Shown one piece after another: positions 40,964 to 55,856 of a DNA stretch of 64,000 nucleotides. Every line of letters begins with the position of its first letter. The stretch's first letter is position 1. Under the pieces are notes generated by a model. It worked only from the letters and a program-made list of their open reading frames with translations, searched no databases and had not been told where the DNA came from. Both the position numbers and the translations under genes were made by a program. Source of the DNA: Phreatobacter aquaticus (lineage in GTDB: Bacteria > Pseudomonadota > Alphaproteobacteria > Rhizobiales > Phreatobacteraceae); contig NZ_CP039865.1 of NCBI RefSeq assembly GCF_005160265.1, forward strand, positions 4,178,828 to 4,242,827, in the 5' to 3' direction.

Positions 40964-42340
40964 TCAGCGGAGAGCATGGCGCACATCCGGGTCCTCAAGG
41001 GTCTGGTCGAGCGTCTTGCGCGTACGCTCGATAATCGCGTCGATATCATCGGCCGTGCAGCAAAGCGGCGGCGCATAGCCGAGCACGCCGGTGGGGAACG
41101 CACGGATGACCAGGCCGTTGTCCCAGGCGCGCTCGAAAATGCGCTGGGCCGGCGCGGCAGCGGCCGGCAGCGGAGTCCTGGCGATTTTGTCTGTGACAAG
41201 CTCGATCGCCGCCAGCATGCCACGGCCACGCACATCGCCGACGAGTGGATGATCGGCGAGCCCCCGAAGCCCAGTCAGCAGCCGTTCGCCCATCAACCGG
41301 CCATTGTCGAGAAGGCCGCCCTCATAGAGATCCAGCACGGCCATGGCGACGGCCGCGCTCACCGGATGGGCCGAATAGGTATAGCCATGCCCTACCGCCG
41401 CGCGGCCGGCACCATCGGCAATCACCTGGTAGACCCTGTCCGACATCAGGACCGCGCCCATCGGCACATAGCCGGAGGTCAGCCCCTTCGCGACGGTCAT
41501 CAGATCGGGAACGATGCCCTCGTCGGCGCAGGCGAACATCGGCCCCGTCCGCCCGAACCCGGTGATCACCTCGTCGGCGACGAACAGGATGTCGAGATCG
41601 GCGCAAAGCTGCCGCATCGACGCCATCCAGCCGGCCGGCGGAACCAGCACGCCGCCGGATCCCTGGATGGGCTCGACATAGAACGCGGCGACCCGATCAG
41701 CGCCGCCGACTTCGCCGATCTTGGCCAGGAACTGGTCCCGGGATGCTGCGATGATCGCGCTCGCATCCTGACCCACGGGGTTGCGATAGACGTCATGAGA
41801 CGGAATTTTATGCTGCCAATCGAGCGGCACGCCGAACCCGGCATGGAAAGCCGGCAATGCGGTCAGTCCGGCACCCACCGTCGAGGACCCATGATAGCCC
41901 TGCGCGACCGAGATGAACTGATCCTTCTCCGGCTTGCCCCGTGCCTGCTGGTAAAAGCGGACGAAGCGCACAGTGCTGTCGACGGCGTCCGAACCGCCCA
42001 GCGTGAAATAGACGTGGTCGAGATCGCCCGGGGCAAGCTCGGCGAGGCGCGCCGCCAGCCGGATTGCAGGCTCCGAGCCGAGGCTGAAATAGCCGGTGGC
42101 ATAGGGAAGCTGGCGCATCTGGCGCGCTGCCGCCTCGACGATCGTTTCCTGACCATAGCCGGCATTGACACACCAGAGGCCGGCAAAGCCATCGACGAGC
42201 GTGCGGCCCGTCGCATCCGTCACTGTCGCGCCCTTGCCCGAGGCAAGGACACGGACACCCGCCGCCTCGTGGCCCCGCCAGCTCGCCACAGGGTGGATGA
42301 GGTGCGCCCGATCGAGCTCGACCAGTGAATTCGCCAGCAT
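40964..42340 (-). CDS. Class III (omega) aminotransferase, PLP-dependent
   Basis: A 458-residue fold-I aminotransferase. It has DGFAGLWCVNAGYGQETIVEAAARQM near the N-terminus, YFTLGGSDAVDSTVRFVRFYQQARGKPEKDQFISVAQGYHGSSTVG for the cofactor site, ILFVADEVITGFGRTGPMFAC, and the PLP lysine in LMTVAKGLTSGYVPMGAVL. This resembles the putrescine/beta-alanine/taurine:pyruvate aminotransferase group. ATG 42340 has AGGAG 7 bases upstream; the open frame upstream overlaps the acetyltransferase gene and is not needed. It probably transfers the omega-amino group of an amine or amino acid to pyruvate or 2-oxoglutarate. It is co-transcribed with the GNAT gene, 20 bases away. Confidence 0.9.
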   Translation of the reverse strand: MLANSLVELDRAHLIHPVASWRGHEAAGVRVLASGKGATVTDATGRTLVDGFAGLWCVNAGYGQETIVEAAARQMRQLPYATGYFSLGSEPAIRLAARLAELAPGDLDHVYFTLGGSDAVDSTVRFVRFYQQARGKPEKDQFISVAQGYHGSSTVGAGLTALPAFHAGFGVPLDWQHKIPSHDVYRNPVGQDASAIIAASRDQFLAKIGEVGGADRVAAFYVEPIQGSGGVLVPPAGWMASMRQLCADLDILFVADEVITGFGRTGPMFACADEGIVPDLMTVAKGLTSGYVPMGAVLMSDRVYQVIADGAGRAAVGHGYTYSAHPVSAAVAMAVLDLYEGGLLDNGRLMGERLLTGLRGLADHPLVGDVRGRGMLAAIELVTDKIARTPLPAAAAPAQRIFERAWDNGLVIRAFPTGVLGYAPPLCCTADDIDAIIERTRKTLDQTLEDPDVRHALR

Positions 42341-42360
42341 GGAATGACTCCTGATCGATG

Positions 42361-43203
42361 TCAGCCGAAGGCCTGGGCGGCCAGAGCGAAACTGCGCCAT
42401 TGCGGATCGGGCGGGACGCGCCCGCCCCGCACCATGGATGTCCCGCCGCCGACCGGGGCCAATCCCTTGTCGGTGAGCCAATCCGCAAGGCCGCTATCGG
42501 CTTGCGTATCGACACGCAGGAAGCGGCCGTCGCACTCGGCCAGCGCGAACGACAGGAGGCGTCGGGCATCGTCCGGGTGGCGTGCGATGACGGGGCCTGC
42601 GACCTGCCCGCGGCCAAACGGGCGCAATGCGACAAAGCCGGCCAGACGCCCGTTCTCCTTGATCGCAGCAATCCGCCCGTCCGCCGCGACCGCGCCGATC
42701 AGGGCGGCCCGGTCCATGCCGGTCGCCGCCTGATCGAGTGCGGCAAGCTGGTCTATCTCACAGGCATCCAGCCAGGCGATGCCCTCTGGCCGCCCCCCGC
42801 CGGAAGCCAGCCCCTGATGCTGGTGAATCGCGACGCCATCGACAAAACCGAGCTTTCGATAGAGCGGCAGCCCGTCGCTGGTCGCGACAAGGCGCCATTC
42901 GTCTGCTCTGACGCGAGCCATCGCGCGCTCGACCAGCAGGCGGCCAAGCCCCTGGCCACGCATTTCCGGGGCAACGATGATCATGTTGAGCATGGCCACC
43001 GGGCCGAATGGCGTCGCAAAGGCAGTGCCGACGAGGCGTCCATCGACCATTGCGACGACCCCTTTGCTGAGGCTGAGGCCAAGGGCCCAATCTTCGCGGC
43101 GATGTGGCCAGCTTTCGGCCCGGGAGAGTGCGACAGCAGCATCGAGATGGGCCACCTTGAACGGCTCGAACGCGATCACCGGGGCATCAGGTATGGCGGA
43201 CAT
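42361..43203 (-). CDS. GNAT-family N-acetyltransferase, paralogue 2
   Basis: A 280-residue GNAT protein. The catalytic domain has FEPFKVAHLDAAVALSRAESWPHRREDWALGLSLSKGVVAMVDGRLVGTAFA, then MLNMIIVAPEMRGQGLGRLLVERAM with the acetyl-CoA binding loop RGQGLG (about 82-87), and LPLYRKLGFVDG. The C-terminal half (about 145-280) parallels that of the protein at 31856-32740, and both share WPHRxEDWAL. It is followed within 20 bases by the aminotransferase, so acetylation may act on a substrate or product of that enzyme. The start ATG is at 43203. Confidence 0.87.
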   Translation of the reverse strand: MSAIPDAPVIAFEPFKVAHLDAAVALSRAESWPHRREDWALGLSLSKGVVAMVDGRLVGTAFATPFGPVAMLNMIIVAPEMRGQGLGRLLVERAMARVRADEWRLVATSDGLPLYRKLGFVDGVAIHQHQGLASGGGRPEGIAWLDACEIDQLAALDQAATGMDRAALIGAVAADGRIAAIKENGRLAGFVALRPFGRGQVAGPVIARHPDDARRLLSFALAECDGRFLRVDTQADSGLADWLTDKGLAPVGGGTSMVRGGRVPPDPQWRSFALAAQAFG

Positions 43204-43527
43204 GAGCGATCATCCCGTCGCATGCAGATTGTGGGGGCATCATCGCGACAGGCGCGGCGCATGTGCTGTCCGGTTCAGCCAGCCCACCGCAATCTTCGAC
43301 CGTTCGCATTGCTGCGCGCCGCAGAAAATGCCGCAGGCTTAGCTCCAGCCCAGGAAGATTCGTCAGTCCAGCGACGGGGACCGCAACATGGTGCCGTGGC
43401 ATCGCTGCAATACGGTAGTTTCTGCTTTGCCCGACGCCCAATGCGGCGGCCTTGCGCGAGCAGGCGGCCCTAGGATCAGCTTATCACTCGCCTCTCCCGA
43501 GGCATGCGGCCTGACGACAGGTACTCG
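43204..43527. promoter_or_regulatory. Divergent intergenic region with amine-cluster motif at 43407-43430
   Basis: These 324 bases lie between the leftward acetyltransferase and the rightward HAD gene. GCAATACGGTAGTTTCTGCT starts at 43407, about 97 bases before the HAD ATG. It resembles blocks at 40867-40890 (opposite strand) and 34147-34164. I see no gene in the interval. Confidence 0.5.
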
Positions 43528-44196
43528 ATGATGACGTTTCGACCGAAATTCGTGACCTTCGACTGCCATGGCACTCTGATCAATTTTGACATGGCCGGTG
43601 CTGCCCGCCGCATCTATGGCGAGGTGCTACCCGAACCCGCCATGGCGAACTTCATCCGCGACTTCTCCGCCTTCAGGCTGGATGAGATCCTCGGCGCCTG
43701 GAAGCCTTATGCCGATGTCGTCCATCGCTCGCTCGAGCGAACTTGCCGCCGCAACAATGTGCCGTTCAGGCCTGAAGATGCTCTCCGCATCTACGAGGAG
43801 GTTCCGACCTGGGGTCCTCACCCCGATGTGCCAGCCGGACTGGCGCGCGTTGCGCAGCATATTCCGCTGGTCATCCTGTCGAACGCCATGAACGACCAGA
43901 TCATGTCGAACGTCGCCAAGCTTGGCGCGCCGTTCCACATGGTCATCACCGCCGAGGAGACCGGCAGCTACAAGCCGCAGATGAACGGCTTCGAATATAT
44001 GCTCGACAAGCTCGGCTGCGGACCGGACGACATCACCCATGTCTCGTCCTCGTTCCGCTACGACCTGATGACCGCCCACGATCTCGGCATCCGCTCGAAG
44101 GTCTGGGTCAACCGCGGGCACGAGCCGGCCAACCCCTATTACGGCTATACCGAGATCCCCGATATTTCCGGCCTTCCCGGCGTCTTCGGGCTCTAA
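43528..44196 (+). CDS. HAD-superfamily hydrolase, 2-haloacid dehalogenase type II-like, copy 2
   Basis: A 222-residue HAD protein (230 if an upstream ATG at 43504 is used). Motif I is FVTFDCHGTLINFD, motif II LVILSNAMNDQIM, and the lysine region ITAEETGSYKPQMNGFEYMLDKLG is followed by HVSSSFRYDLMTAHDLGIRSKVWVNRG. The class is the same as at 39982-40698, but the sequences are clearly divergent. It is directly followed by an FAD oxidoreductase, a pairing that suggests a shared pathway. The substrate is not readable and true dehalogenation is not assured. Confidence 0.83.
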   Translation: MMTFRPKFVTFDCHGTLINFDMAGAARRIYGEVLPEPAMANFIRDFSAFRLDEILGAWKPYADVVHRSLERTCRRNNVPFRPEDALRIYEEVPTWGPHPDVPAGLARVAQHIPLVILSNAMNDQIMSNVAKLGAPFHMVITAEETGSYKPQMNGFEYMLDKLGCGPDDITHVSSSFRYDLMTAHDLGIRSKVWVNRGHEPANPYYGYTEIPDISGLPGVFGL

Positions 44197-44230
44197 CGCC
44201 CTGCCCGTCACCGACAGGGAACCTTGCTCG

Positions 44231-45507
44231 ATGCAGCTCAAGTCCTACTGGCACGATACCGCCCCCCCTTCGCATCCGCCGCCAAGGGACCGGTCTCCGG
44301 ACATTACGACGTGGCGGTCATCGGTGCCGGCTTCACCGGGCTGGGCGCCGCCCGCAAGCTGGCGATGGAGGGCCGCAGCGTCATCGTGTTCGAGGCCGAG
44401 ACGGTCGGCTACGGCGCCTCCGGGCGCAATGGCGGCCATCTCAACAATGGCATCGCCCACAGCTATCTCGCCGCCGAAGCCGAATTCGGCCCGGACAAGG
44501 CCCTCGCGATCTACCGCGCCTTCGACGACGGCATCGCCACCATCGAGCGGATCATCGCGGAAGAAGGAATAGACTGCGCGTTCCGTCGCTCGGGCAAGCT
44601 GAAGCTCGCCTCGAAGCCGCAGCACTATGAGAGCCTGGCCCGGAACTTCGAAGTGCTCCATCGCGCCGCCGATCCCGACACAGCCATGCTCGCCAAGGCC
44701 GATCTGCTGAACGAGGTGCGTTCCGACGCCTTCCATGGCGGCATGCTGCAGACGAAGAGCGCGATGATGCATGTTGGGCGCTTTGTGTGCGGGCTCGGCG
44801 AGGCCGCAGTGCGCCGCGGCGCTGTCATTCACGAACAGGCACAGGTCACCAGTTGCGAACCCTCCGGCAAGGGCTGGGCGCTGGCAACGCCGAACGGCAT
44901 TGCAACGGCCGGGTCGGTGCTCCTCGCGACTGGCGCCTACACGACCAAGGCCTTCCCTTATTTTCGCAGGCGCATCGTGCCGGTCGGCAGCTTCGTCATC
45001 GTCACCCGGCCGCTGAGCGAGGACGAGGTGGCAGCCACCGTTCCAGGTGACCGGACCTATGTGAACTCGCTCAATGTGGGAAACTATTTCCGGTTGACCC
45101 CCGATCGCCGCCTGGTCTGGGGCGGGCGGGCCCGCTTCTCCGCCTTTTCGGACCAAAGGTCCGATGCCAAGAGTGGCGCCATCCTGCGGCAGAGCCTCCT
45201 GAAGATCTTCCCGCAGCTCGGCGACATCGCCATCGACTATTGCTGGGGCGGCCTGGTCGACATGACGCAGGACCGCTTTCCGCGGGCCGGCAAAGCCGAG
45301 GGACTCTATTTCTCGATGGGTTATTCCGGCCATGGAGCCCAGATCGCCACCCATATGGGGGAGATCATGGCCGGCCTGATGACCGGCCAGATCGACCGCA
45401 ATCCATGGGCAGACCTGCCCTGGGCGGCGGTCCCCGGACATTTCGGCACGCCGTGGTTCCTGCCGCTCGTCGGGCTCTACTACAAGTCCCTCGATCTGAT
45501 CCGGTGA
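44231..45507 (+). CDS. FAD-dependent oxidoreductase, DAO family (PuuB-like), with a frameshift near the start
   Basis: About 425 residues. The body (Rossmann site DVAVIGAGFTGLGAARKLAMEGRSVIVFEAE, GYGASGRNGGHLNNGI, and end motif LYFSMGYSGHGAQIATHMGEIMAGLM) resembles gamma-glutamylputrescine oxidase-type enzymes. The natural start MQLKSYWHDTAPP (ATG 44231) is in a different frame from the body. The shift falls in the C7 run at 44262-44268; one more C would join ...WHDTAPP to FASAAKGPVSGHYDV exactly. Otherwise only a TTG at 44224 opens the body frame. It follows the HAD gene by 27 bases. An amine or amino acid substrate is likely. Confidence 0.83.
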
Positions 45508-45806: not shown

Positions 45807-46766
45807 CTAGCAGTCCTCGAGCCTGCATGCGCGAACTTCCGACGGCGTTGCATTGAACTCCCGCCGAAATGCCCGATTGAAATGCGAGATATTGCCAAAG
45901 CCGGCATCGAGAGCGATCTCGCCGATGCTTTTCTGCCGGTCCGTGGGCGCGAGCAGCATGGCGTAGGCTGCTGCCAGACGCGCGGTCCGGAGATATTCGG
46001 AGAAATGGGTCCCTGCTTGCGCGAACAGCATCTGAACATAGCGCGGCGTGACCTGGTGGCGCGCTGCGATCCAGGCGATCTGCAGGTCGGGCTCCAGTGC
46101 ATTCAACGCGATATCCCGCTTGATCGCGTGCAGGCGGGCGGCGGCCAATCCGGTGCGAGTGGCCGATGATCGCACCGCGCCCGGCGCCTCGACGGCCATG
46201 GCGATCAGATGGTGGATATGGATGACGACCCGTTCCTGCTGTTCGGGTGTGGCGAGCGCTTTCGTGTCGCGCAGGATTCCGAGATAGCTGCCCAGCAGGC
46301 GAAGTGCCTCGTTGTCGGGGCCGACTGTGCGCAGGACGGCATCGTCAGCGGCCGGCACTGCCGAACGTGGCAGCCGAAGTGTGGTGAACCTGGACAATCC
46401 GGCATTCGTGGTGCCGCCGACGCGATCTGTAGCAAAGAGGACAGCGTGCCCCGGAAGCAGTTCCTGCTCGCGCCCGCTCATCCGCGCCAGGTCGCATCCC
46501 GCATGATTGATGACGAAGACAAGGTCGTCGCTGTTGATCCGGTGGTTCGGCCGCCAATAGTGCGCACCGGAAGATTGGCCCGTCGCAACGCCGAGGCCTG
46601 GCAGGACTCGCAGAGATGCCTCGGACACGAAGGGCCGCTCGCCCCGCGGCTCAATCTCCAGCCCGCAGATTGTATGGCCGAACAGGCTCCGCCAGGCTTC
46701 GACCGAGTCCCGTTCCGGAAAATCCGCCGTCGAGAACCGCAGCATGGCGGCTGAAGGAACCAGCAT
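45807..46766 (-). CDS. AraC-family transcriptional regulator
   Basis: A 319-residue regulator with an N-terminal AraC-binding-like domain (FVSEASLRVLPGLGVATGQSSGAHYWRPNHRINSDDLVFVINHAGCDL) and a C-terminal double helix-turn-helix (IAWIAARHQVTPRYVQMLFAQAGTHFSEYLRTARLAAAYAMLLAP...KSIGEIALDAGFGNISHFNRAFRREFNATPSEVRA). ATG 46766 is preferred to an upstream TTG at 46814; ATG 46745 is also possible. It is divergent from the patatin-like gene, with about 200 bases between, and could control the patatin-receptor-channel genes. The effector is unknown. Confidence 0.88.
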   Translation of the reverse strand: MLVPSAAMLRFSTADFPERDSVEAWRSLFGHTICGLEIEPRGERPFVSEASLRVLPGLGVATGQSSGAHYWRPNHRINSDDLVFVINHAGCDLARMSGREQELLPGHAVLFATDRVGGTTNAGLSRFTTLRLPRSAVPAADDAVLRTVGPDNEALRLLGSYLGILRDTKALATPEQQERVVIHIHHLIAMAVEAPGAVRSSATRTGLAAARLHAIKRDIALNALEPDLQIAWIAARHQVTPRYVQMLFAQAGTHFSEYLRTARLAAAYAMLLAPTDRQKSIGEIALDAGFGNISHFNRAFRREFNATPSEVRACRLEDC

Positions 46767-46965
46767 CGACACGCGGAAGGCGCTCCCCTGAGCCGACGAA
46801 CGAGAACGATACAAATATGTCCTGCGTTCTTCGCTTTAGGTCAAGACAATCCAGCGGCGGCCCTGCTCTTTGAGAGCCATAGGATATGTGGCCCAAAGCG
46901 CCTCGCGGCGCGTTGAGCCCGCATGCCTTCCTTTGGGTGAAGTGCCGTTTCTGTTGCCGGTGACC

Positions 46966-48144
46966 ATGTTCAGATTTCTTGCTCGCGTCGGCGTTCTGCT
47001 GGCCATTCTCGGTACCGGGGTCGCCTGCACCACGCATGAGCGGCTTCCGGCCGTCCCGCGGAACCAGGCGCTTACGGTTCAGTTCCTTGGCATTGCCGAC
47101 GCCAGATTTCATCTGACGACCGAGCCGGAGCGCTTCAGCCGGGTCTGGCTCGCGGCGGAGCGGCGCCTCGCCGCCACCCGGGGGCGACGGCTCGAGACCG
47201 AACACATGCTCGCGCTGTCCGGCGGCGGCGACAACGGCGCCTTCGGGGCTGGGATCCTCTATGGCTGGACCCAGCGAGGCAACCGTCCGGACTTCTCGCT
47301 CGTCACCGGCGTTTCAACCGGCGCGCTGATCGCGCCGTTCGCCTTTCTGGGCCGCGCCTACGACGAGCAATTGAAGGCGGTCTATACCTCCGTTGACCAG
47401 AACGATATCGCGATCCAGCGCCCGGCTATCTCTGTCCTCACCAGCGACTCGCTCGCCGACACCGCTCCCCTCGCCCGGCTCATCGCCCGTTATGTCACCG
47501 ATGAGATGATCGACCAGATCGGTCAGGAATATGGTCGGGGGCGGCTGCTGCTCATCGGCACCACTGACCTTGACCTCGGCCAGCCCGTGATCTGGAACAT
47601 CGGCGCGATCGCAGCCAGCGGCCATCCCGCGGCGGGGGAGACGATCCGCAAGGTGCTGCTGGCCTCGGCCTCCATCCCTGGTTTCTTCCCGCCGGTTCCC
47701 ATGGATGTCGACGTCAGCGGTCAGCGCCGTCAGGAAATGCATGTCGACGGCGGCGCCACCACGCAGGTTTTTCTCTATCCGGCCAACGTGCCGCTGCGCG
47801 ATCTGCCCCAGGACGTCGGCGCCCGTCGTCGCGTCGCCTGGATCATCCGGAACGGCCGCACGCTGGAGCGCCCCGTGCAGGTCGAACGCGGCCTGGTTCC
47901 GGTAGCCCAGCGCTCGATCTCAACCATGATCGCCGCCAATTCCATGGGTGACATCTACCGGATGTATCTCGTCAATCGGCGCGACAACGTCGATTTCAAC
48001 CTCGCCCACGTCACCAGCCGCTTCACGCTGGAGAACGACAAGCCCTTCGACCGCACCTACATGAACGCGCTGTTCGAATATGGGCGCTCCGAAATCACCC
48101 GTGACGCGCCTTGGGCCAAGAAGCCCCCCGGTTTCGAGCCGTGA
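46966..48144 (+). CDS. Patatin-like phospholipase, predicted lipoprotein
   Basis: A 392-residue enzyme of the patatin fold. The oxyanion-hole loop is GGGDNGAFGAG (about 86-96), the nucleophile is Ser117 in GVSTG, and the dyad aspartate is in VDGG (about 261). The N-terminus MFRFLARVGVLLAILGTGVAC ends in a cysteine at residue 21 that fits a lipoprotein box only loosely, so a membrane-anchored periplasmic location is likely but not certain. A patatin enzyme hydrolyses acyl esters of phospholipids. ATG 46966 begins the signal peptide; the frame extends upstream without sense. It lies 52 bases before a Cache receptor gene and a ligand-gated channel gene. Confidence 0.87.
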   Translation: MFRFLARVGVLLAILGTGVACTTHERLPAVPRNQALTVQFLGIADARFHLTTEPERFSRVWLAAERRLAATRGRRLETEHMLALSGGGDNGAFGAGILYGWTQRGNRPDFSLVTGVSTGALIAPFAFLGRAYDEQLKAVYTSVDQNDIAIQRPAISVLTSDSLADTAPLARLIARYVTDEMIDQIGQEYGRGRLLLIGTTDLDLGQPVIWNIGAIAASGHPAAGETIRKVLLASASIPGFFPPVPMDVDVSGQRRQEMHVDGGATTQVFLYPANVPLRDLPQDVGARRRVAWIIRNGRTLERPVQVERGLVPVAQRSISTMIAANSMGDIYRMYLVNRRDNVDFNLAHVTSRFTLENDKPFDRTYMNALFEYGRSEITRDAPWAKKPPGFEP

Positions 48145-48196
48145 GAATCCCCCAATTCGACGGGCCGCCCAGCGCCATCACCGAAGATCGCCCCGC

Positions 48197-49324
48197 ATGA
48201 CCTTCGCCACGCGCCTGTCACTGATCCTCGCCGGCCTTCTCGCCCTGGTGCTCGGCACCTTGAGCACACTGGCCCTGATGTCGGCCAAGCGGGACCTCAT
48301 CGCCCGCCAGCGCAGTGAGCTCAACACCGTCAGCGTCCTCCTGCGCAATGCGCTTGATCGCACCAGCGCCTATGCGCTGACGGAGGTGGAGGCCATGGCC
48401 CGCCAGCCGGAACTGCGCGCCGCCATGGCCGGATCGAACGCCAAAGCCATTCTCGACCGCTTCGGGGAGACCTTCGCATTTCTGCGCGCGGAGGCAGGAC
48501 TGGAGATCATGCAGTTCCAGAGCGCGGGCCTCCGGACACTGGCGCGCCTGCACGATCCGGGGAGGTCCAACGACGATGTCTCCTCGATCCGGCCGATCGT
48601 CGTCGCCGCCAACCGCGCACGCCGCGGGCAGCGCGGTATCGAGATTGGCCCGACGGGCATACTTGCGCTGCGCGGCGTCGCGCCCGTCGTCAACGACGGG
48701 CAGTTCGTCGGCACAGCGGAGATCGGCTTCGATCTGCGCCCGGTGCTGCAGACGGTGAAGATCGGCAGTGGCGCGGAAGTCGCCATCTTCATCTCGACCA
48801 CCATGACCCAGGCGCCCAGCCGCGGCGACGGAGCCGACGAGGTACAGCTCAAGGACTCCACGGATTCGAGGGTCTTCGCTGCGATCGCCCGCACACCCGC
48901 CTTCCGCCTCGGCCGAGATACCGTCCAGTTGGAGGCGGTGATCGGCGACGAGCGCTGGGGCATCGTCGTGGAGCCGCTGCTCGACTTCAGCGGCCGGATG
49001 ATCGGCGGCATGGTCGGCGCCAAGGATGCCACCGCTCTGCATGCGGCCTATCGGCGCGACGCCCTGATTTTCGGCTTTGTCGCGTTCGTCGGCGCCATCG
49101 TCGCCTTCTCCGTGGTGCTCGTGACGCTTCGGTCGTTCATCCTCGGGCCGCTGCAGGCCATCGAGGATTATGCCGGGAAGGTCGAGACGTCGGACAAGCT
49201 CCCAGAACCGCCGAAGGTCGGGGGCGGCCGGGAGGTGACGCGCACCATGGCCGCCTTCGCGGCGCTGGCGAAGCGGCGCGCCGAACCCGCCGATCTCGCC
49301 GGCAAACCCGGAGGCTCGGCATGA
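48197..49324 (+). CDS. Membrane Cache-type receptor with HAMP-like tail and no output domain
   Basis: A 375-residue membrane protein. TM1 is at about 8-29, a periplasmic region of about 255 residues follows, and TM2 is at about 289-309. The periplasmic part (ARQRSELNTVSVLLRNALDRTSAYALTEVEAMARQPELRAAM...FQSAGLRTLARLHDPG...GIEIGPTGILALRGVAPVVNDGQFVGTAEIGFDLRPVL) resembles the dCache/double-Cache sensor of chemoreceptors. After TM2, FILGPLQAIEDYAGKVETSDKLPEPPKVGGGREVTRTMAAFAALAKR looks like one HAMP domain, then the protein ends. No kinase, methyl-accepting or cyclase domain exists. Its stop overlaps the ion-channel start (ATGA, 49321-49324), suggesting a functional partnership. Confidence 0.8.
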   Translation: MTFATRLSLILAGLLALVLGTLSTLALMSAKRDLIARQRSELNTVSVLLRNALDRTSAYALTEVEAMARQPELRAAMAGSNAKAILDRFGETFAFLRAEAGLEIMQFQSAGLRTLARLHDPGRSNDDVSSIRPIVVAANRARRGQRGIEIGPTGILALRGVAPVVNDGQFVGTAEIGFDLRPVLQTVKIGSGAEVAIFISTTMTQAPSRGDGADEVQLKDSTDSRVFAAIARTPAFRLGRDTVQLEAVIGDERWGIVVEPLLDFSGRMIGGMVGAKDATALHAAYRRDALIFGFVAFVGAIVAFSVVLVTLRSFILGPLQAIEDYAGKVETSDKLPEPPKVGGGREVTRTMAAFAALAKRRAEPADLAGKPGGSA

Positions 49325-50382
49325 GGAGGCTCGTGCGGGCCATCCTTGCTGCCCTCGTCGCGCTTGCCTGCCTTGGGCCGTCGGCCATCCCGTCCCTCGC
49401 CCAGGTCAGCCTGCCGGAGGGCGTTGAATTGCCGATCCAGGTGCGCCTCGCCGTGCGCGTCCTCAATATCGTGCGGCTCCACGAGGTGCTCGGCGAGGTC
49501 GGCGCTTCCGTCGATTTTACCCAGCGCTGGTCCGATCCGGCGGTCGCCTTCGACCGGATCGAGCGGGGCAGCGAGCGCATCGATCTGGTCGGTCCGGAGG
49601 CCGAGGCGCGCCTGAAGCAGATGTGGTCGCCAGACCTGATGATCGAGAGCATGATTGGCACGCCGCGGGCCCAGACGGTTTCGCTCTCGCTCTTCCACGA
49701 TGGCCGCGTGGTGCTCGTACGCCGGTTCGATGCCGACTTCCGCGTTCAGGTCTCCATGGGCGCCTTTCCCTTCGACCGCCAGGCTCTCGCCCTCTCCTTC
49801 GTGCCGCCGCGCCATCCCGCAAGCGAGGTGGTGCTGACGACCACGGAGTTCGACCGACACTATTCCAGCATCGCCCCGGCGCTCTCGGCGGTGAACTGGA
49901 TCCCCGCCAAGCTGGGCTTCCGGCAGGACACGTTCTACGGCTGGAACGCCCGTCCCTATTCCCGACTGACTGCGGTGGCCGAAATCGACCGCAACTGGCA
50001 TCGCTATGTACTGCGGGTCTTCGTTCCCTATTTTGCGATCATGTCGCTGTCGCTTTTCCTGCTCTGGGCTCCCGAGCGCGTCATCTCGAATACCCAGCGT
50101 GCGCCCATGGTCTTCTCATCACTGCTTGCGCTGGCTGCGCTCAGCTTCACGTTCGAGTCGAGTTTTCCGGGCTCGATCTCGATGAACTCCCCGATCGCGA
50201 CGATGATCTCGATGGGCTATTTCTACCTCATCATCGTGCTGCTCCTGGATGTTCTGCTGAGCCAGCACGGATCGCCCATCGCACAGCGCTATCCGTCTCT
50301 GCTGACCGAAGTCCGGCGCAATATCCGCTTCACCGTTCCGGTGATCTATGTCGGCCTGTGCCTGGTGGTCATGCTCGCCTAG
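49321..50382 (+). CDS. Prokaryotic pentameric ligand-gated ion channel (Cys-loop receptor superfamily)
   Basis: A 353-residue channel subunit related to GLIC, ELIC and eukaryotic nicotinic/GABA receptors. A signal peptide (about 1-28, ending SLAQ) is followed by a beta-rich extracellular domain (about 29-228) with W70-S-D72, MWSPDLMI (W102xPD) and the Cys-loop equivalent GAFPFDRQALAL, where FPFD (149-152) is kept and both cysteines are absent, as in other bacterial members. M1 (about 229-249) has the conserved proline in VFVPYFAI. R260 precedes pore helix M2 (about 261-280). The M2-M3 loop is FPGSISMNSP, M3 is about 289-313 and M4 about 335-352. It starts inside the stop of the Cache receptor gene. 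Ligand and ion selectivity are unknown. Confidence 0.9.
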   Translation: MRRLVRAILAALVALACLGPSAIPSLAQVSLPEGVELPIQVRLAVRVLNIVRLHEVLGEVGASVDFTQRWSDPAVAFDRIERGSERIDLVGPEAEARLKQMWSPDLMIESMIGTPRAQTVSLSLFHDGRVVLVRRFDADFRVQVSMGAFPFDRQALALSFVPPRHPASEVVLTTTEFDRHYSSIAPALSAVNWIPAKLGFRQDTFYGWNARPYSRLTAVAEIDRNWHRYVLRVFVPYFAIMSLSLFLLWAPERVISNTQRAPMVFSSLLALAALSFTFESSFPGSISMNSPIATMISMGYFYLIIVLLLDVLLSQHGSPIAQRYPSLLTEVRRNIRFTVPVIYVGLCLVVMLA

Positions 50383-50495
50383 GTCGGTCGGATGATCTCA
50401 CGCCGGATGCCAGGTCAACAGGCAATGCCGGGTGCAGTTGGCCGGCTCATCCCGATCGGCAGCGTCGGCGCGATCCCGCCTGGATCCGGCAAGCG

Positions 50496-51485
50496 TCACG
50501 CGCTGCCCGGCGATCCCCTGCCGCCCCTGGCGCTCGTCGGCGTTTCGCCAAACCGCGATCGAAAACGGCGGTTGAAATAGGACACATCGGAAAAGCCGAC
50601 CGCGAGGGCCACGTCGATCACCCGCAGCGGATCGCGGGCAGCCCCCGCCGCTGTGAGCAGCCGGTAGGCACGCTCGAGACGCACCTCGAGAAGATAGGAC
50701 GAATAGGATTGGCCCCTCTCCTCGAAAAGCATCTGGATCGAGCGCGACGACAGCCCGCAGGCGCGGGCGACGGCACTGAGCGAAAGCGCCGGATCACTTG
50801 CATTGTCGGCGATCCAATTCTTCACAAGGTCGAAGCGGGCCCCACGCTCCGGCAAGCGATTGGGCCCGGCGGCATCCGACCGAACATCACCGAGCGCCAT
50901 TGCGATCAACGCCGCCAGATGGTCGCCCATCAGTGCCAGCGTTGACGGCAATGCGTCCGCCGCATGGTGTGTGATCAGTCGGCTATAGGCCTGGACGAGG
51001 CGCATCGCTTTCACATTGCGCCGAACGGACTGCATGATCAGGTCGTCGGCGGACGTCACGTGGGCCTCGACCATTCCTCGCGGGATGATCACGCCGACAT
51101 AGCGGCCGCCTCGCGGCGCCGCGAGAGAGCCGAACTCATCGCTCGACAGCAGGATTCCATCACCCGCACCGAGCACCGCTTCTTGGCCGCGCTGGCGGGC
51201 AACCAGGGCACCGCCCTCGGGCCAGGCGAATGTGAACGAGTTCGAGTTCGGATCGACCAGTTCCTGATCGCGAAAGCTCTCCGCCGGACTGGTGACTGAC
51301 CGTGAGAGCGTCACCGCGCCAGCTCTGACGACCGCCATCTGGACGCGAAACGGCTTGTCGTCGAGCGGCCGGAAATCGAGCCCGAGGACGGCACGGGCCA
51401 CGTTCTCGCGCCATGTTCGCATATTGCCGGGATCGCCGATCTGCGCACTGTCGAGATGGATCAGGGCCGGCTGGTCTGCATCCAT
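50496..51485 (-). CDS. AraC-family transcriptional regulator
   Basis: A 329-residue regulator. The N-terminal region (NVARAVLGLDFRPLDDKPFRVQMAVVRAGAVTLSRSVTSPAESFRDQE...GILLSSDEFGSLAAPRG) looks like the AraC-binding-like type 2 domain. The C-terminal helix-turn-helix pair is LSLSAVARACGLSSRSIQMLFEERGQSYSSYLLEVRLERAYRLL...RVIDVALAVGFSDVSYFNRRFRSRFGETPT. ATG 51485 is preferred to an upstream TTG. It converges on the channel gene and is divergent from the beta-barrel gene at 51797, making it a candidate regulator of the envelope-protein set. Confidence 0.88.
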   Translation of the reverse strand: MDADQPALIHLDSAQIGDPGNMRTWRENVARAVLGLDFRPLDDKPFRVQMAVVRAGAVTLSRSVTSPAESFRDQELVDPNSNSFTFAWPEGGALVARQRGQEAVLGAGDGILLSSDEFGSLAAPRGGRYVGVIIPRGMVEAHVTSADDLIMQSVRRNVKAMRLVQAYSRLITHHAADALPSTLALMGDHLAALIAMALGDVRSDAAGPNRLPERGARFDLVKNWIADNASDPALSLSAVARACGLSSRSIQMLFEERGQSYSSYLLEVRLERAYRLLTAAGAARDPLRVIDVALAVGFSDVSYFNRRFRSRFGETPTSARGGRGSPGSA

Positions 51486-51796: not shown

Positions 51797-53035
51797 GTGC
51801 AGATATGGAATGATTGGCGAGACAAGCGCCGCGCGGCGCTGATCCCGCTGCTTTTGGCGGGAGGCTGCGATTTCGCCTTCGCACAGGCCGCACAGAACAG
51901 CTGGAGCATGACCGCCGACACCGAGGCCCGCTACTATTCGTGGCGCGACTCCCTCGGCAATCGCGGCACACAGGTCTTCGTGCCGGTGGGCTTCCAGCTG
52001 ACCGGCCGGCCCAATTCGGACTGGAAGCTCGAATCGGTCCTGCGCTCCGGCTACATGTGGTCGAGCCAGAGTTCCGGCGGCGTCAGCACCGATGTGTCCC
52101 GGCCCGTCGACCTGACCTTGTCGCAGCGTGTCACCTATTTCGGCATCAACGGCATCCAGCCCTTTGCGGCCATATCCGCGTCGATCCCGACCGTCTCCAG
52201 CTTTGCCGGCGTCAACGTCAACAATTCCAAATCGGCGCTCGATTCCGACATCGTGCCCAATCCGGTCTTTGGCCAGGGCCTGAACATCGGACCGTCGATC
52301 GGCGCCAATTTCGCCGTGAACGAAAATGTCACGGTGGGCTGGGGCCTCGGCTACACGTCCCGCGGATCTTTCCTGCAGAGCCAGGTTCCAAACTTCTTCA
52401 TTCGCTACAACCCGGGCGATGTGACGACCGCCAACCTGTCAGCTGGCTACCGGGGCGACGCGCTCACCATCAAGGCAATGCTGTCCTATTCATGGGAACA
52501 GGTCACCACGCTGACCAACCCGTTCGGCACCACGCCGCAGTTCCGGCCGGGCGATCGCATCATGCTGGGCGTCAAGACCGGCTACACGTTCAATGACCGC
52601 TGGGCGGCATCCTTCAACGCGGACTTCACCAGCATGGGACGCAACCAGGTCTTGTCGGCGGCCCCCCCGCCGCCCCTGGTCACCGAGCCTGCAAACTCCA
52701 ACTCCAACATGGTCCGGCTGACCAGCGGGGTCACCTATTCGGGGGCCAACTACACGCTCGGGCCGACGCTGTCGTTCCTCTATCGCGACCGCAACGGTTA
52801 CGATTCCACGACGTTCCAGTTCCTGCCGGCCAAGACGACCTGGACGTTGGGCTTTGCCGGGGCCTACGACCTGGGCAATGGCGTCAAGTTCAATGCATCC
52901 GTCGCCCATGTCTGGATCAACCAGAACGTCAATCCCGACAAGCTGGTGGGTGGCCTTGTTCAAGCAGGTTCAGGCCAGCCCGCCGTCGCGACCAATGCGT
53001 GGATCGCGAGCTTCGGCACGAGCTTCAGGATGTGA
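51797..53035 (+). CDS. Predicted outer-membrane beta-barrel protein
   Basis: A 412-residue exported protein. The start is GTG 51797 with GGGGGG 6 bases upstream. An unusually charged N-terminus (MQIWNDWRDKRRAALIPLLLAGGCDFAFAQ) precedes cleavage near residue 30. The mature chain is rich in alternating hydrophobic/polar strands ending in aromatic residues, with glycine/asparagine turns (GWGLGYTSRGSFLQ, TTANLSAGYRGDALTIKAMLSYSWEQV, IMLGVKTGYTFNDRWAASFNADFTSMG, ASFGTSFRM at the end). This pattern fits a porin or FadL/phenol-type barrel, but I cannot name the family. It is first of four rightward genes for envelope proteins. Confidence 0.75.
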   Translation: MQIWNDWRDKRRAALIPLLLAGGCDFAFAQAAQNSWSMTADTEARYYSWRDSLGNRGTQVFVPVGFQLTGRPNSDWKLESVLRSGYMWSSQSSGGVSTDVSRPVDLTLSQRVTYFGINGIQPFAAISASIPTVSSFAGVNVNNSKSALDSDIVPNPVFGQGLNIGPSIGANFAVNENVTVGWGLGYTSRGSFLQSQVPNFFIRYNPGDVTTANLSAGYRGDALTIKAMLSYSWEQVTTLTNPFGTTPQFRPGDRIMLGVKTGYTFNDRWAASFNADFTSMGRNQVLSAAPPPPLVTEPANSNSNMVRLTSGVTYSGANYTLGPTLSFLYRDRNGYDSTTFQFLPAKTTWTLGFAGAYDLGNGVKFNASVAHVWINQNVNPDKLVGGLVQAGSGQPAVATNAWIASFGTSFRM

Positions 53036-53444: not shown

Positions 53445-55856
53445 ATGCGCGCCACCGGCTGGTTCAAGTCATCAGGGCTTTCGGCGGTCCTTGGCGCGCT
53501 TGCTATCGCCGGCCTTCTGACCCTTGGGCTAGCGACGGATGCCCGCGCCAACAACGTCACCGACAAGCTGAAGGACTGCATGGGCGTTGTCGGTGCCGTC
53601 GTGCATGGCGTCGATGCTGTGGCGGAAGGTGCGGTGAAAGTTGCCGATGCCCTGGCCGATCCGACCTATGCGCAATGCGTCTCGCAGGCGGCCGCCGGCG
53701 ACCCCTTCACCATCGCAGCCATGGCGGCGATGACCGGCATCTATGTCGCGACCACCGCTGGCGGCAACGAGCCCTTCACTGACCCGGCAAGCTGCAACGC
53801 CGCGATTGGAAGTTTCGTTGCGACGCAGATCGCCGACTTCCTCAGCGGGCTCATCGAGGACCCGGACAGCCTCATCGGCAGCGCTCTGCGCAGCATGCTG
53901 CCTGAGGCCGCCATCGATGTGATCAACGCAGTCGCGCACGAGGCCGCTGGCGATATCGGCAAGGCCCTCGGCGACAAGTTCATGGCCGCGCTCGGACCCA
54001 TCGGCGAATATCTGAAATGCGGCTGCGCAGCCGCCGGCACGGCGGCCATTGTGAAAAACGTCGCCGAGGACATCGTCAATGCCGCAACAGCGGCAGGCAA
54101 GAGCGCCGAGGCCTGCGCCGATCTCGGTGGCATGATCTTGGAGGATCCGCGGGCCGTCGTCGGCGCCCTCTTCGATGATCCCGGCGCCGTCGTGGCCGCC
54201 GTCGTCGATGCCGTGTGCGGCATCAACAAGACCACCAAGGAAATCTGCGGCACGATCGGGGAAATTTACCAGACCGCCAAGGAGGTCTGCGATGCCGTCC
54301 ATGTCTGCCCGGGGCTCGAGGAGATTTGGGGAGGCGTGAAGGATGTCGGCCACAGCATCGGCTGCTTCTTCAGTAACTGCTCCGATGACCCGCCGCCACC
54401 AACCGGCCCGCCTGCAGCCTGCAGTCCGGGTACGACCTATCAGACGCTCTCCGACACGCGCACGTGCAGCTGTACACTCCCGAATGGCTGGAAAACGGTC
54501 TGGACCCCGGTCTACAGCAGTCTCAACGGCGGCTATATCGACACTCAGGTCTATACTTGCGCGGCCTGCTCATCGGCGGAAACCAATGTTGACGGCTGGT
54601 GCCGCGCCTGCCCGCACGGCTTCAACCGCGATGCGGCCACCGGCCAGTGTTCGCGGCCGATCATCTGTTCGCCCGGCTCGTTGATCAACGCCGACAATAC
54701 CGGCTGCTGGACCTGCCCCGCCGGTTTCCAGTTCAATACGGGCGGAACAGGCTGCACGCCGAGCTGCGCGGCGCGCCCGTGGCTCCAATACAATGCCTCC
54801 GCCAATGACAGGCCTGCCGGCTACAATGACGCGATGTTCGCCCCCTATGCGGGCGGCGCCTGTCAGTGCCCGAGCGGTCAATACGACACCGGGTCGAGCT
54901 GCGCGGCGATCCCGGTCTGCGCCAGCGGCAGTTTCGACCAGAAGGCCGGGCGATGCATTCCCAGTTGCGGCAACAGCGCCGTTCCCAGCGGACGCTTCAT
55001 CGACGGCGTCGAGACCTGCGACCAGTGCCCCAACGGCCAGCGCAACATCGACGGAACATGCCGCACGCCCTGCGCCAGCGACCAGATTCGCTCCGGCGAC
55101 TCGTGCATGACCTGCCCGGGAGGCACGCAGATCAGCGGCGGCCGCGGCGGCAATGGCGAATATCTCTCCTGCGCCTCGGTCTGCGGGCCAGGGAGCACGT
55201 TCCAGGCAGCGCCCTTCCAGGCGGTCACGCAGGCCAACGGTTCGATCGGGGCCGGACTACAGGGAACCATGGCCCCCGGCGCCGGCGGCCCGCTGGCACA
55301 GGCCGCCGGCTCGATCGGCGGCAACCATGTTGTGGCGGGCGCCGAAATCGCCATTCAGAGCACCTTGCCCGGTGGCGGCATGGCCGGCTCCGCGGGAACC
55401 GGCGGCGGAGCCGCGCCCGCACCGACCTGCCGGCCCTGCGCCGACAACGAGCGGAGCGTGGCTGTCACCATGGTCACCGCATCGGGCGGATCGATCACCC
55501 AGAACCAGTGCGCCGCCTGCCCTCCCGGCCAGATCAGCAATCGCAAGGGCGACCAGTGCATCGGACGGGTGGCCGGCCTGTTTCCGGCCATCCGTCGCGC
55601 TGTCCCGCGCGATGTCGCGCCGCCCGCGCGGGAAACCCCGCCTCGCGCCGCCCCTGCCCGTCCCGCAACGCCCACCGAACGGGCGGCACCTCAGCCGCAA
55701 CGCCCGGCAACGGCTCAGCCGGCCGCCGCCCGCGAGCCGCTGCGCTGCCCGCCAGGTCGCGTGCCGAACCGGGCCGGAACGGCCTGCGTGCTCGATGTCG
55801 GCGATTTTGACCGCGGTCCCGGTGGCTCCTCAGTCGGAGGCCGCAGTGGGCGCTGA
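53445..55856 (+). CDS. Large secreted cysteine-rich protein with EGF/TNFR-like repeats
   Basis: An 803-residue exported protein. A signal peptide ends near residue 36 (ATDARA). Residues about 37-310 are alanine-rich and helical with scattered cysteines (AGTAAIVKNVAEDIVNAATAAGKSAEACADLGG). A linker with PPPPTGPP follows. About 325-590 is a series of short cysteine repeats of the form CPxGx(5-10)C (CPAGFQFNTGGTGC, CPSGQYDTGSSC, CASGSFDQKAGRC, CPNGQRNIDGTC). Next comes a glycine-rich part, two more repeats, a proline/alanine-rich stretch and a final CPPGRVPNRAGTACVLD. I know no characterised bacterial family with this architecture. SD AGAGG precedes the ATG. Confidence 0.78.
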   Translation: MRATGWFKSSGLSAVLGALAIAGLLTLGLATDARANNVTDKLKDCMGVVGAVVHGVDAVAEGAVKVADALADPTYAQCVSQAAAGDPFTIAAMAAMTGIYVATTAGGNEPFTDPASCNAAIGSFVATQIADFLSGLIEDPDSLIGSALRSMLPEAAIDVINAVAHEAAGDIGKALGDKFMAALGPIGEYLKCGCAAAGTAAIVKNVAEDIVNAATAAGKSAEACADLGGMILEDPRAVVGALFDDPGAVVAAVVDAVCGINKTTKEICGTIGEIYQTAKEVCDAVHVCPGLEEIWGGVKDVGHSIGCFFSNCSDDPPPPTGPPAACSPGTTYQTLSDTRTCSCTLPNGWKTVWTPVYSSLNGGYIDTQVYTCAACSSAETNVDGWCRACPHGFNRDAATGQCSRPIICSPGSLINADNTGCWTCPAGFQFNTGGTGCTPSCAARPWLQYNASANDRPAGYNDAMFAPYAGGACQCPSGQYDTGSSCAAIPVCASGSFDQKAGRCIPSCGNSAVPSGRFIDGVETCDQCPNGQRNIDGTCRTPCASDQIRSGDSCMTCPGGTQISGGRGGNGEYLSCASVCGPGSTFQAAPFQAVTQANGSIGAGLQGTMAPGAGGPLAQAAGSIGGNHVVAGAEIAIQSTLPGGGMAGSAGTGGGAAPAPTCRPCADNERSVAVTMVTASGGSITQNQCAACPPGQISNRKGDQCIGRVAGLFPAIRRAVPRDVAPPARETPPRAAPARPATPTERAAPQPQRPATAQPAAAREPLRCPPGRVPNRAGTACVLDVGDFDRGPGGSSVGGRSGR

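Follow-up and report, generated by a model that had tools for sequence, protein, structure and literature searches.

Conserved pairing of an output-less Cache receptor with a pentameric ligand-gated ion channel in and beyond Phreatobacter aquaticus

Introduction

Cooperation between a bacterial pentameric ligand-gated ion channel (pLGIC) and a Cache sensor was suggested by Tasneem et al. in 2004. Passages of their report (PMC549065) describe a predicted operon in Rhodopseudomonas, in which a simple pLGIC gene is accompanied by a stand-alone Cache gene, as well as fusions of pLGICs to PBP-I, MCP-N and Cache domains. No further paper on such a pairing was among the matches listed from the open-licence PMC literature. 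A 2016 inventory of pLGICs (PMC4795631) states, in a passage on the subject, that no microbial pLGIC had yet been studied in vivo, and a term search of its main text returned neither the word "Cache" nor the word "operon". A strict, old pairing with a recognizable sensor provides a concrete handle on what these channels do in bacteria. Here, we describe such a pairing in a 64,000-nucleotide stretch of the Phreatobacter aquaticus genome (contig NZ_CP039865.1, positions 4,178,828 to 4,242,827 of the forward strand), hereafter called the window, in which the gene of a Cache receptor without a signaling output domain directly precedes and overlaps a pLGIC gene.

Results

The channel gene at 49321-50382 (+) encodes a pLGIC subunit, a bacterial relative of the animal neurotransmitter-gated channels. 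Its product matched the Pfam profile PF02931 (Neur_chan_LBD) above the cut-off (8.3e-12), which places it in the neurotransmitter-gated channel family, as the initial annotation of this DNA had supposed. The Pfam transmembrane model PF02932 gave no match to it at E 1. In a phmmer search against PDB sequences, the best match (1.2e-12) was to 4yeu, an entry named as a Cys-loop channel plus a proton-gated channel, and GLIC was matched at about 1e-10. The AlphaFold model, predicted as a single chain, had a mean pLDDT of 91.1 and four C-terminal helices (residues 226-249, 257-281, 291-314 and 325-352). Among the Foldseek matches listed for this model, GLIC chains gave TM scores of 0.74-0.77 by query length and 0.83-0.86 by target length, and ELIC, the glycine receptor (GlyR) and the GABA-A receptor were also matched. 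The pLGIC motif residues W70 and D72 (W-x-D), W102 and P104 (W-x-P), F149-D152 (FPFD) and the pre-M1 arginine R224 were kept in the alignments.

The gene immediately upstream (48197-49324, +) encodes the output-less Cache receptor (P0002), the proposed sensor subunit, which matched PF14827 (1.5e-20). Its stop codon and the channel start share the four bases ATGA (49321-49324, +), as read in the DNA. The annotated start of the channel inside the receptor stop was thus present, as was the 52-base gap between the receptor gene and a patatin-like gene upstream of it. The coordinates and families first given for the three genes also held, with Pfam matches for patatin, Cache receptor and channel alike. 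Two hydrophobic stretches of the receptor span residues 9-27 and 291-309, and 66 residues follow the second one. Its AlphaFold model (pLDDT 87.8) showed a long helix made of the first transmembrane segment (TM1) and a stalk, a double Cache-like region, a long second transmembrane helix (TM2) and, after TM2, a helix-loop-helix remnant. Foldseek matches of this model included the modeled chemoreceptors McpB and McpC as well as sensor domains from DctB, McpH, PctA, Tlp3 and CitA, and no PDB sequence was matched by the receptor sequence. The layout is TM1, periplasmic dCache_3, TM2 and a short HAMP-like tail. The annotated succession of Cache, transmembrane helix and HAMP held for the dCache_3 domain and the transmembrane helices and failed for HAMP, since the window receptor had no match to Pfam HAMP and offers a helix-loop-helix only.

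The pairing was examined in 39 pLGIC loci from genomes sampled at the order, class, phylum and family levels, with one Reyranella record. The total was 1,820 genome searches, repeats and Cache searches included; part of the candidates was scored in many genomes, and one scan of genome contigs gave a single locus. Twenty of the loci belong to the channel subfamily of the window (the window, L003, L026-L034, L062 and L083-L090). Scores from profiles of the two families separated the loci cleanly: the window channel reached 560 bits, and the other subfamily channels reached 252-548 bits. Each of these 20 loci had a Cache gene immediately before the channel gene in the same orientation, and one was seen upstream in none of the 19 remaining pLGIC loci (L035-L043, L058-L061 and L063-L068; 35-126 bits), among which L066 is a fragment and L064 has 429 bases upstream to the contig end, so that absence of a Cache gene is not assessable there. 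In the order survey, the ten top Cache matches came from the same ten loci as the ten top channel matches. The genome of the window, which is one contig, also holds a second pLGIC gene (C1:4388077-4389132, -) with its own Cache gene upstream.

The two genes were tightly coupled throughout the subfamily. A start codon giving the 4-base overlap was available in 16 of the 20 pairs, and every pair had its nearest start between -4 and +16 bases (channel starts were taken as the start codon nearest the 4-base overlap; a further ATG is present at -1 in L026, L030 and L033). The flanking genes turned over, and no other family occurred in more than three of the 20 loci once the shadow frames of the pair were set aside. 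For this count, neighbor families were defined by BLAST at 1e-15 in the 25 largest groups, shadow frames were judged from up to four members per group, and the neighbors of L062, with 388 bases upstream of the pair, were seen in part. A search for plasmid carriage of the channel gave no match. Because every subfamily locus carries the pair, the observation is beyond chance, and the adjacency extends to other strains. Receptor and channel are a conserved two-gene unit.

The two genes have also been inherited together. Separate maximum-likelihood trees were built for channels and receptors (20 sequences each). They had 15 of 17 splits in common, and the non-shared splits had supports of 90/99 and 73/47 in the channel tree and 86/79 and 78/70 in the receptor tree. 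The tree-distance correlation was 0.86 (0.93 in clade A), a value matched in 0 of 10,000 permutations. In both trees, the window pair and the same-genus pair of L027 grouped with Reyranella (supports 99/98 and 97/95), and two other same-genus pairs (L030 and L033) grouped with another family (100/100 and 100/99). The second pair of the window's genome was placed deep and apart from the window pair, and its receptor sat on a long branch. These departures from organism kinship, alike for both genes, indicate that the pair was copied or transferred as a unit, an outcome that linkage by itself would favor too. The channels formed two clades, A (14 members) and B (6 members); the window channel was 23-27% identical to the members of clade B, and one genome (G1164) holds one channel of each clade. 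The pairing predates the split of these clades. Altogether, the invariable pairing and the congruent trees give a sound foundation to the functional tie that had been proposed between the output-less receptor and the pLGIC, and we consider the two very probably linked in function.

Next, we compared the receptor with its unpaired relatives. In the order survey, 69 further Cache matches were found beside the 10 paired ones. Their frames had 592-808 residues in 66 cases and 221-288 in three; all three short frames reach a contig end and therefore count neither for nor against. Among the 69, we examined 21 relatives (20 of the best 22, plus L025 from the window's own genome), and dCache_3 occurred together with MCPsignal in all 21. 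The signaling domain of methyl-accepting chemotaxis proteins (MCPs) was absent from the Pfam families matched by the 20 paired receptors, the window receptor among them. In a joint unrooted tree, the 20 paired receptors made up one side of a 100/100 branch. Judged by its sequence, the paired receptor is a chemoreceptor-type sensor without the signaling hairpin. Descent of the output-less form from a full chemoreceptor would be the simpler reading of this unrooted tree.

Within the paired receptors, the distal Cache module was the best conserved region (mean entropy 1.62 versus 2.07-2.27 elsewhere). Residues R117, P121, D127, R132, N139, G147, E149, G154, G172, E175 and G177 of this module reached at least 80% conservation in the paired set and in the MCPs alike. 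Specific to the paired set were K188, which was invariant (20/20), and E65, A137, D179 and P133, at 80-90%. The ligand or the use of the distal Cache sensor has probably changed with respect to the MCPs.

At E 0.1, Pfam HAMP was detected in 2 of the 20 paired receptors (best 0.0058), compared with 19 of the 21 related chemoreceptors. The tails after TM2 had 51-66 residues in 15 paired receptors and 8-21 residues in five (L029, L030, L031, L033 and L085). The decay of HAMP and these five very short tails rule out HAMP as a general coupler, the role in which it had initially been cast. A direct coupling would have to use either the membrane helices or the periplasmic part.

We then examined the agonist site of the channel itself. 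The agonist-site positions of ELIC, taken from passages of PMC3119659, were located with the ELIC-like channel L042 as a bridge and tabulated for the 20 paired channels and 15 of the 19 unpaired ones; L061 and L068, which are fused or extended, L063, which is long, and L066, a fragment, were left out. At the positions of ELIC Tyr38, Asn103, Glu131, Phe133, Tyr174 and Phe187, the window channel has D, V, V, P, Y and Y, as read from an alignment that is less secure in these loops than in the core. Equivalents of Glu131 and Phe133 were missing in all 20 paired channels, whereas each was present in 9 of the 15 unpaired channels. The Tyr38 position was occupied by an acid in 20 of 20 paired channels (13 Glu and 7 Asp) and in none of the 15 unpaired ones, and the Phe187 position was F, Y or H in 19 of the 20 paired channels. 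By these alignments, the paired channels do not retain the classical amine site.

An acidic residue at M2 position -1' or -2' is a mark of cation-selective pLGICs. With M2 prime positions in GLIC numbering, -1' was D or E in 16 of the 20 paired channels. The window channel has Q(-1'), T(-2') and R(0') and thus no acid at either position; the same Q(-1') and R(0') occurred in L003 and L027, and the paralogue in the window's genome has P(-1'). The ion selectivity of the window channel therefore cannot be assumed. The arginine at M2 0', which had been read as a pLGIC hallmark, does not qualify as one, being found in 3 of the 20 subfamily channels (the window, L003 and L027).

Several other channels showed features of their own. 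At L042:3012-8036 (-), a glutamate decarboxylase gene (TIGR01788, above cut-off) overlaps the ELIC-like channel gene by 4 bases; a decarboxylase adjoining ELIC is known in Erwinia, according to a passage of PMC3119659. After this channel come a PDC/Cache-type membrane protein with a histidine-kinase-like C-terminus (by eye) and then an MFS gene. The PDC-type sensor gene, downstream of the channel and missed by the Cache profile, is a second, separate pLGIC-Cache neighborhood. At L068:4221-6359 (-), a pLGIC is fused to an N-terminal Peripla_BP_6 domain (1.3e-32) of the PBP-I type, a cis counterpart of the separate sensor. The clade B channel at L034:5170-6537 (-) carries about 100 extra proline-rich residues between the signal peptide and the ligand-binding domain.

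The patatin-like phospholipase gene (46966-48144, +; PF01734, 1.6e-20) is probably a neighbor outside the Cache-channel unit. Its product has the patatin motifs GVSTG (GxSxG, residue 115) and DGG (DG[GA], residue 261), in agreement with its annotation as a patatin-like phospholipase; the lipobox annotated with it does not fit the strict pattern [LVI][ASTVI][GAS]C. A patatin gene adjoins the pair in 2 of the 20 loci, the window and the same-genus L027, and this occurrence in one genus excludes it as a part of the unit, contrary to the proposal that the phospholipase belongs to the system. It is possibly cotranscribed with the pair. A promoter scan of 46500-50700 found 0 promoter-like and 2 terminator-like sites, a number not above that in shuffled sequences.

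Two related AraC-family regulators at 45807-46745 and 50496-51464 (-) flank the three genes; their nearest models were RhrA and FeaR, below cut-offs. They were rejected as parts of the unit: outside the window and L027, the upstream one was not seen beside the pair, and the AraC matches of L028 and L032 are weaker and lie farther away. Close upstream, 40967-45504 encodes a class III aminotransferase (PRK05965, above cut-off), a GNAT acetyltransferase, a type II haloacid dehalogenase and a DAO-type oxidase, by inference an amine-catabolism-like cluster. Farther downstream lie an outer-membrane beta-barrel protein gene (51797-53035; OMP_b-brl, 6.6e-9) and a gene at 53445-55856, whose 803-residue product shows, by eye, many repeats of the CxxC type and matched nothing in Pfam at 0.001.

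Discussion

We propose that the chemoreceptor-derived Cache protein acts as a sensor subunit and controls channel gating from within the periplasm or the membrane, a reading to which we assign a probability of about 55%. The two overlapping genes would then yield one two-protein, ligand-responsive ion channel. The channel protein would form the usual homopentameric pore, and its partner would be the membrane-anchored sensor half of a dCache_3 chemotaxis receptor, without the signaling hairpin and, in several lineages, also without HAMP. A small periplasmic ligand would bind the Cache domain, and the ligand-bound Cache domain would alter channel opening through periplasmic or membrane contacts, giving ion flux as the output instead of CheA phosphorylation. 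We infer the physical contact between the proteins, as well as the ligand, the direction of its effect, the ion and the physiological output. A more specific form of the model is tentative: the agonist site would reside in trans on the Cache subunit, the channel would have given up its neurotransmitter-type site, and a kinase cascade would have been rewired to an ion current, with coupling through the same contacts.

Several points weigh against gating by the Cache subunit. Of 23 positions conserved in the MCPs and not in the paired receptors, 17 fall in the distal Cache module, and the mean entropy of this module is 1.62 in the paired set versus 1.32 in the MCPs; these changes may mean that the pocket is altered or no longer in use. 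The agreement of the two trees is partly due to linkage, since neighboring genes that overlap move jointly. The F, Y or H at the Phe187 position together with the new acid at the Tyr38 position may provide the channel with a changed agonist site of its own. Loss of the ELIC site is also common, since L042 alone among the 15 unpaired channels keeps all six agonist residues. No recurring neighbor gene across the 20 loci points to a ligand. In addition, Cache receptors are usually dimers, which presents a problem of stoichiometry with a pentameric channel.

Some of these points would suit a role of the Cache protein in assembly or trafficking, as an auxiliary subunit that serves the folding or stability of the channel and has lost sensing. 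The strict pairing and tight gene coupling fit such a stoichiometric partner, the cytoplasmic tail is dispensable, and the paired set has lost conservation at the 17 distal Cache positions that chemoreceptors keep. However, core residues of the distal Cache module are kept as in chemoreceptors, and no other region of the paired receptors is as well conserved as this module; we therefore regard a pure assembly role as unlikely. Less likely again is the presence of two independent sensors that share an operon and a common ligand or condition without touching; the Cache protein may then associate with chemoreceptors as a partner that lacks an output. Operon partners often share regulation only, and the window's genome also has at least one dCache_3 chemoreceptor. 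Yet receptor and channel were never found apart in the 20 subfamily loci despite the turnover of flanking genes, and HAMP, the signaling route of chemoreceptors, is lost or decayed. The least likely alternative is that the Cache protein only captures and concentrates a ligand that then acts at the channel's own site, as a passage of PMC549065 suggests for fused and operonic sensor domains; the conserved acid at the Tyr38 position and the aromatic residue or histidine at the Phe187 position could form a changed site, but the loop B residues of ELIC are missing in all 20 paired channels, and Cache sensors usually signal through their helices.

If gating by the Cache subunit is correct, the pair would show one way in which the sensors of chemoreceptors came to control ion channels, and it would be a bacterial counterpart of the auxiliary subunits of channels. 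Channels of the paired subfamily may then look silent when expressed alone.

The closest described system is the predicted Rhodopseudomonas operon, which, like the window, has a pLGIC gene and a separate Cache gene; the two are likened here by description. In the passages of PMC549065 concerned, the operon is a single case, the word HAMP does not appear, and neither a wider survey of the pair nor a chemoreceptor kinship of the Cache protein is given. With ELIC and GLIC, the window channel shares the channel fold and motifs. The locus of the ELIC-like L042 differs in having no Cache gene of this family, and the amine-site residues of ELIC, as given in passages of PMC3119659, are mostly missing from the paired channels. 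DeCLIC and the pLGICs fused to PBP-I, MCP-N or Cache domains resemble the pair in that an extra periplasmic domain modulates, or may modulate, a pLGIC (passages of PMC12664993 and PMC549065); in those proteins the extra domain lies in cis on the channel chain, whereas in the window it belongs to a separate membrane protein with two helices. The dCache_3 MCPs, the nearest sequence relatives found, have the same TM-dCache_3-TM layout as the window receptor, which differs from them in having no MCP signaling domain, a decayed or absent HAMP and a linked channel gene. The idea that a Cache protein and a pLGIC cooperate is thus already known, and what is added here is the extent and age of the pairing, the chemoreceptor kinship of the receptor, the loss of HAMP and the change of the agonist site.

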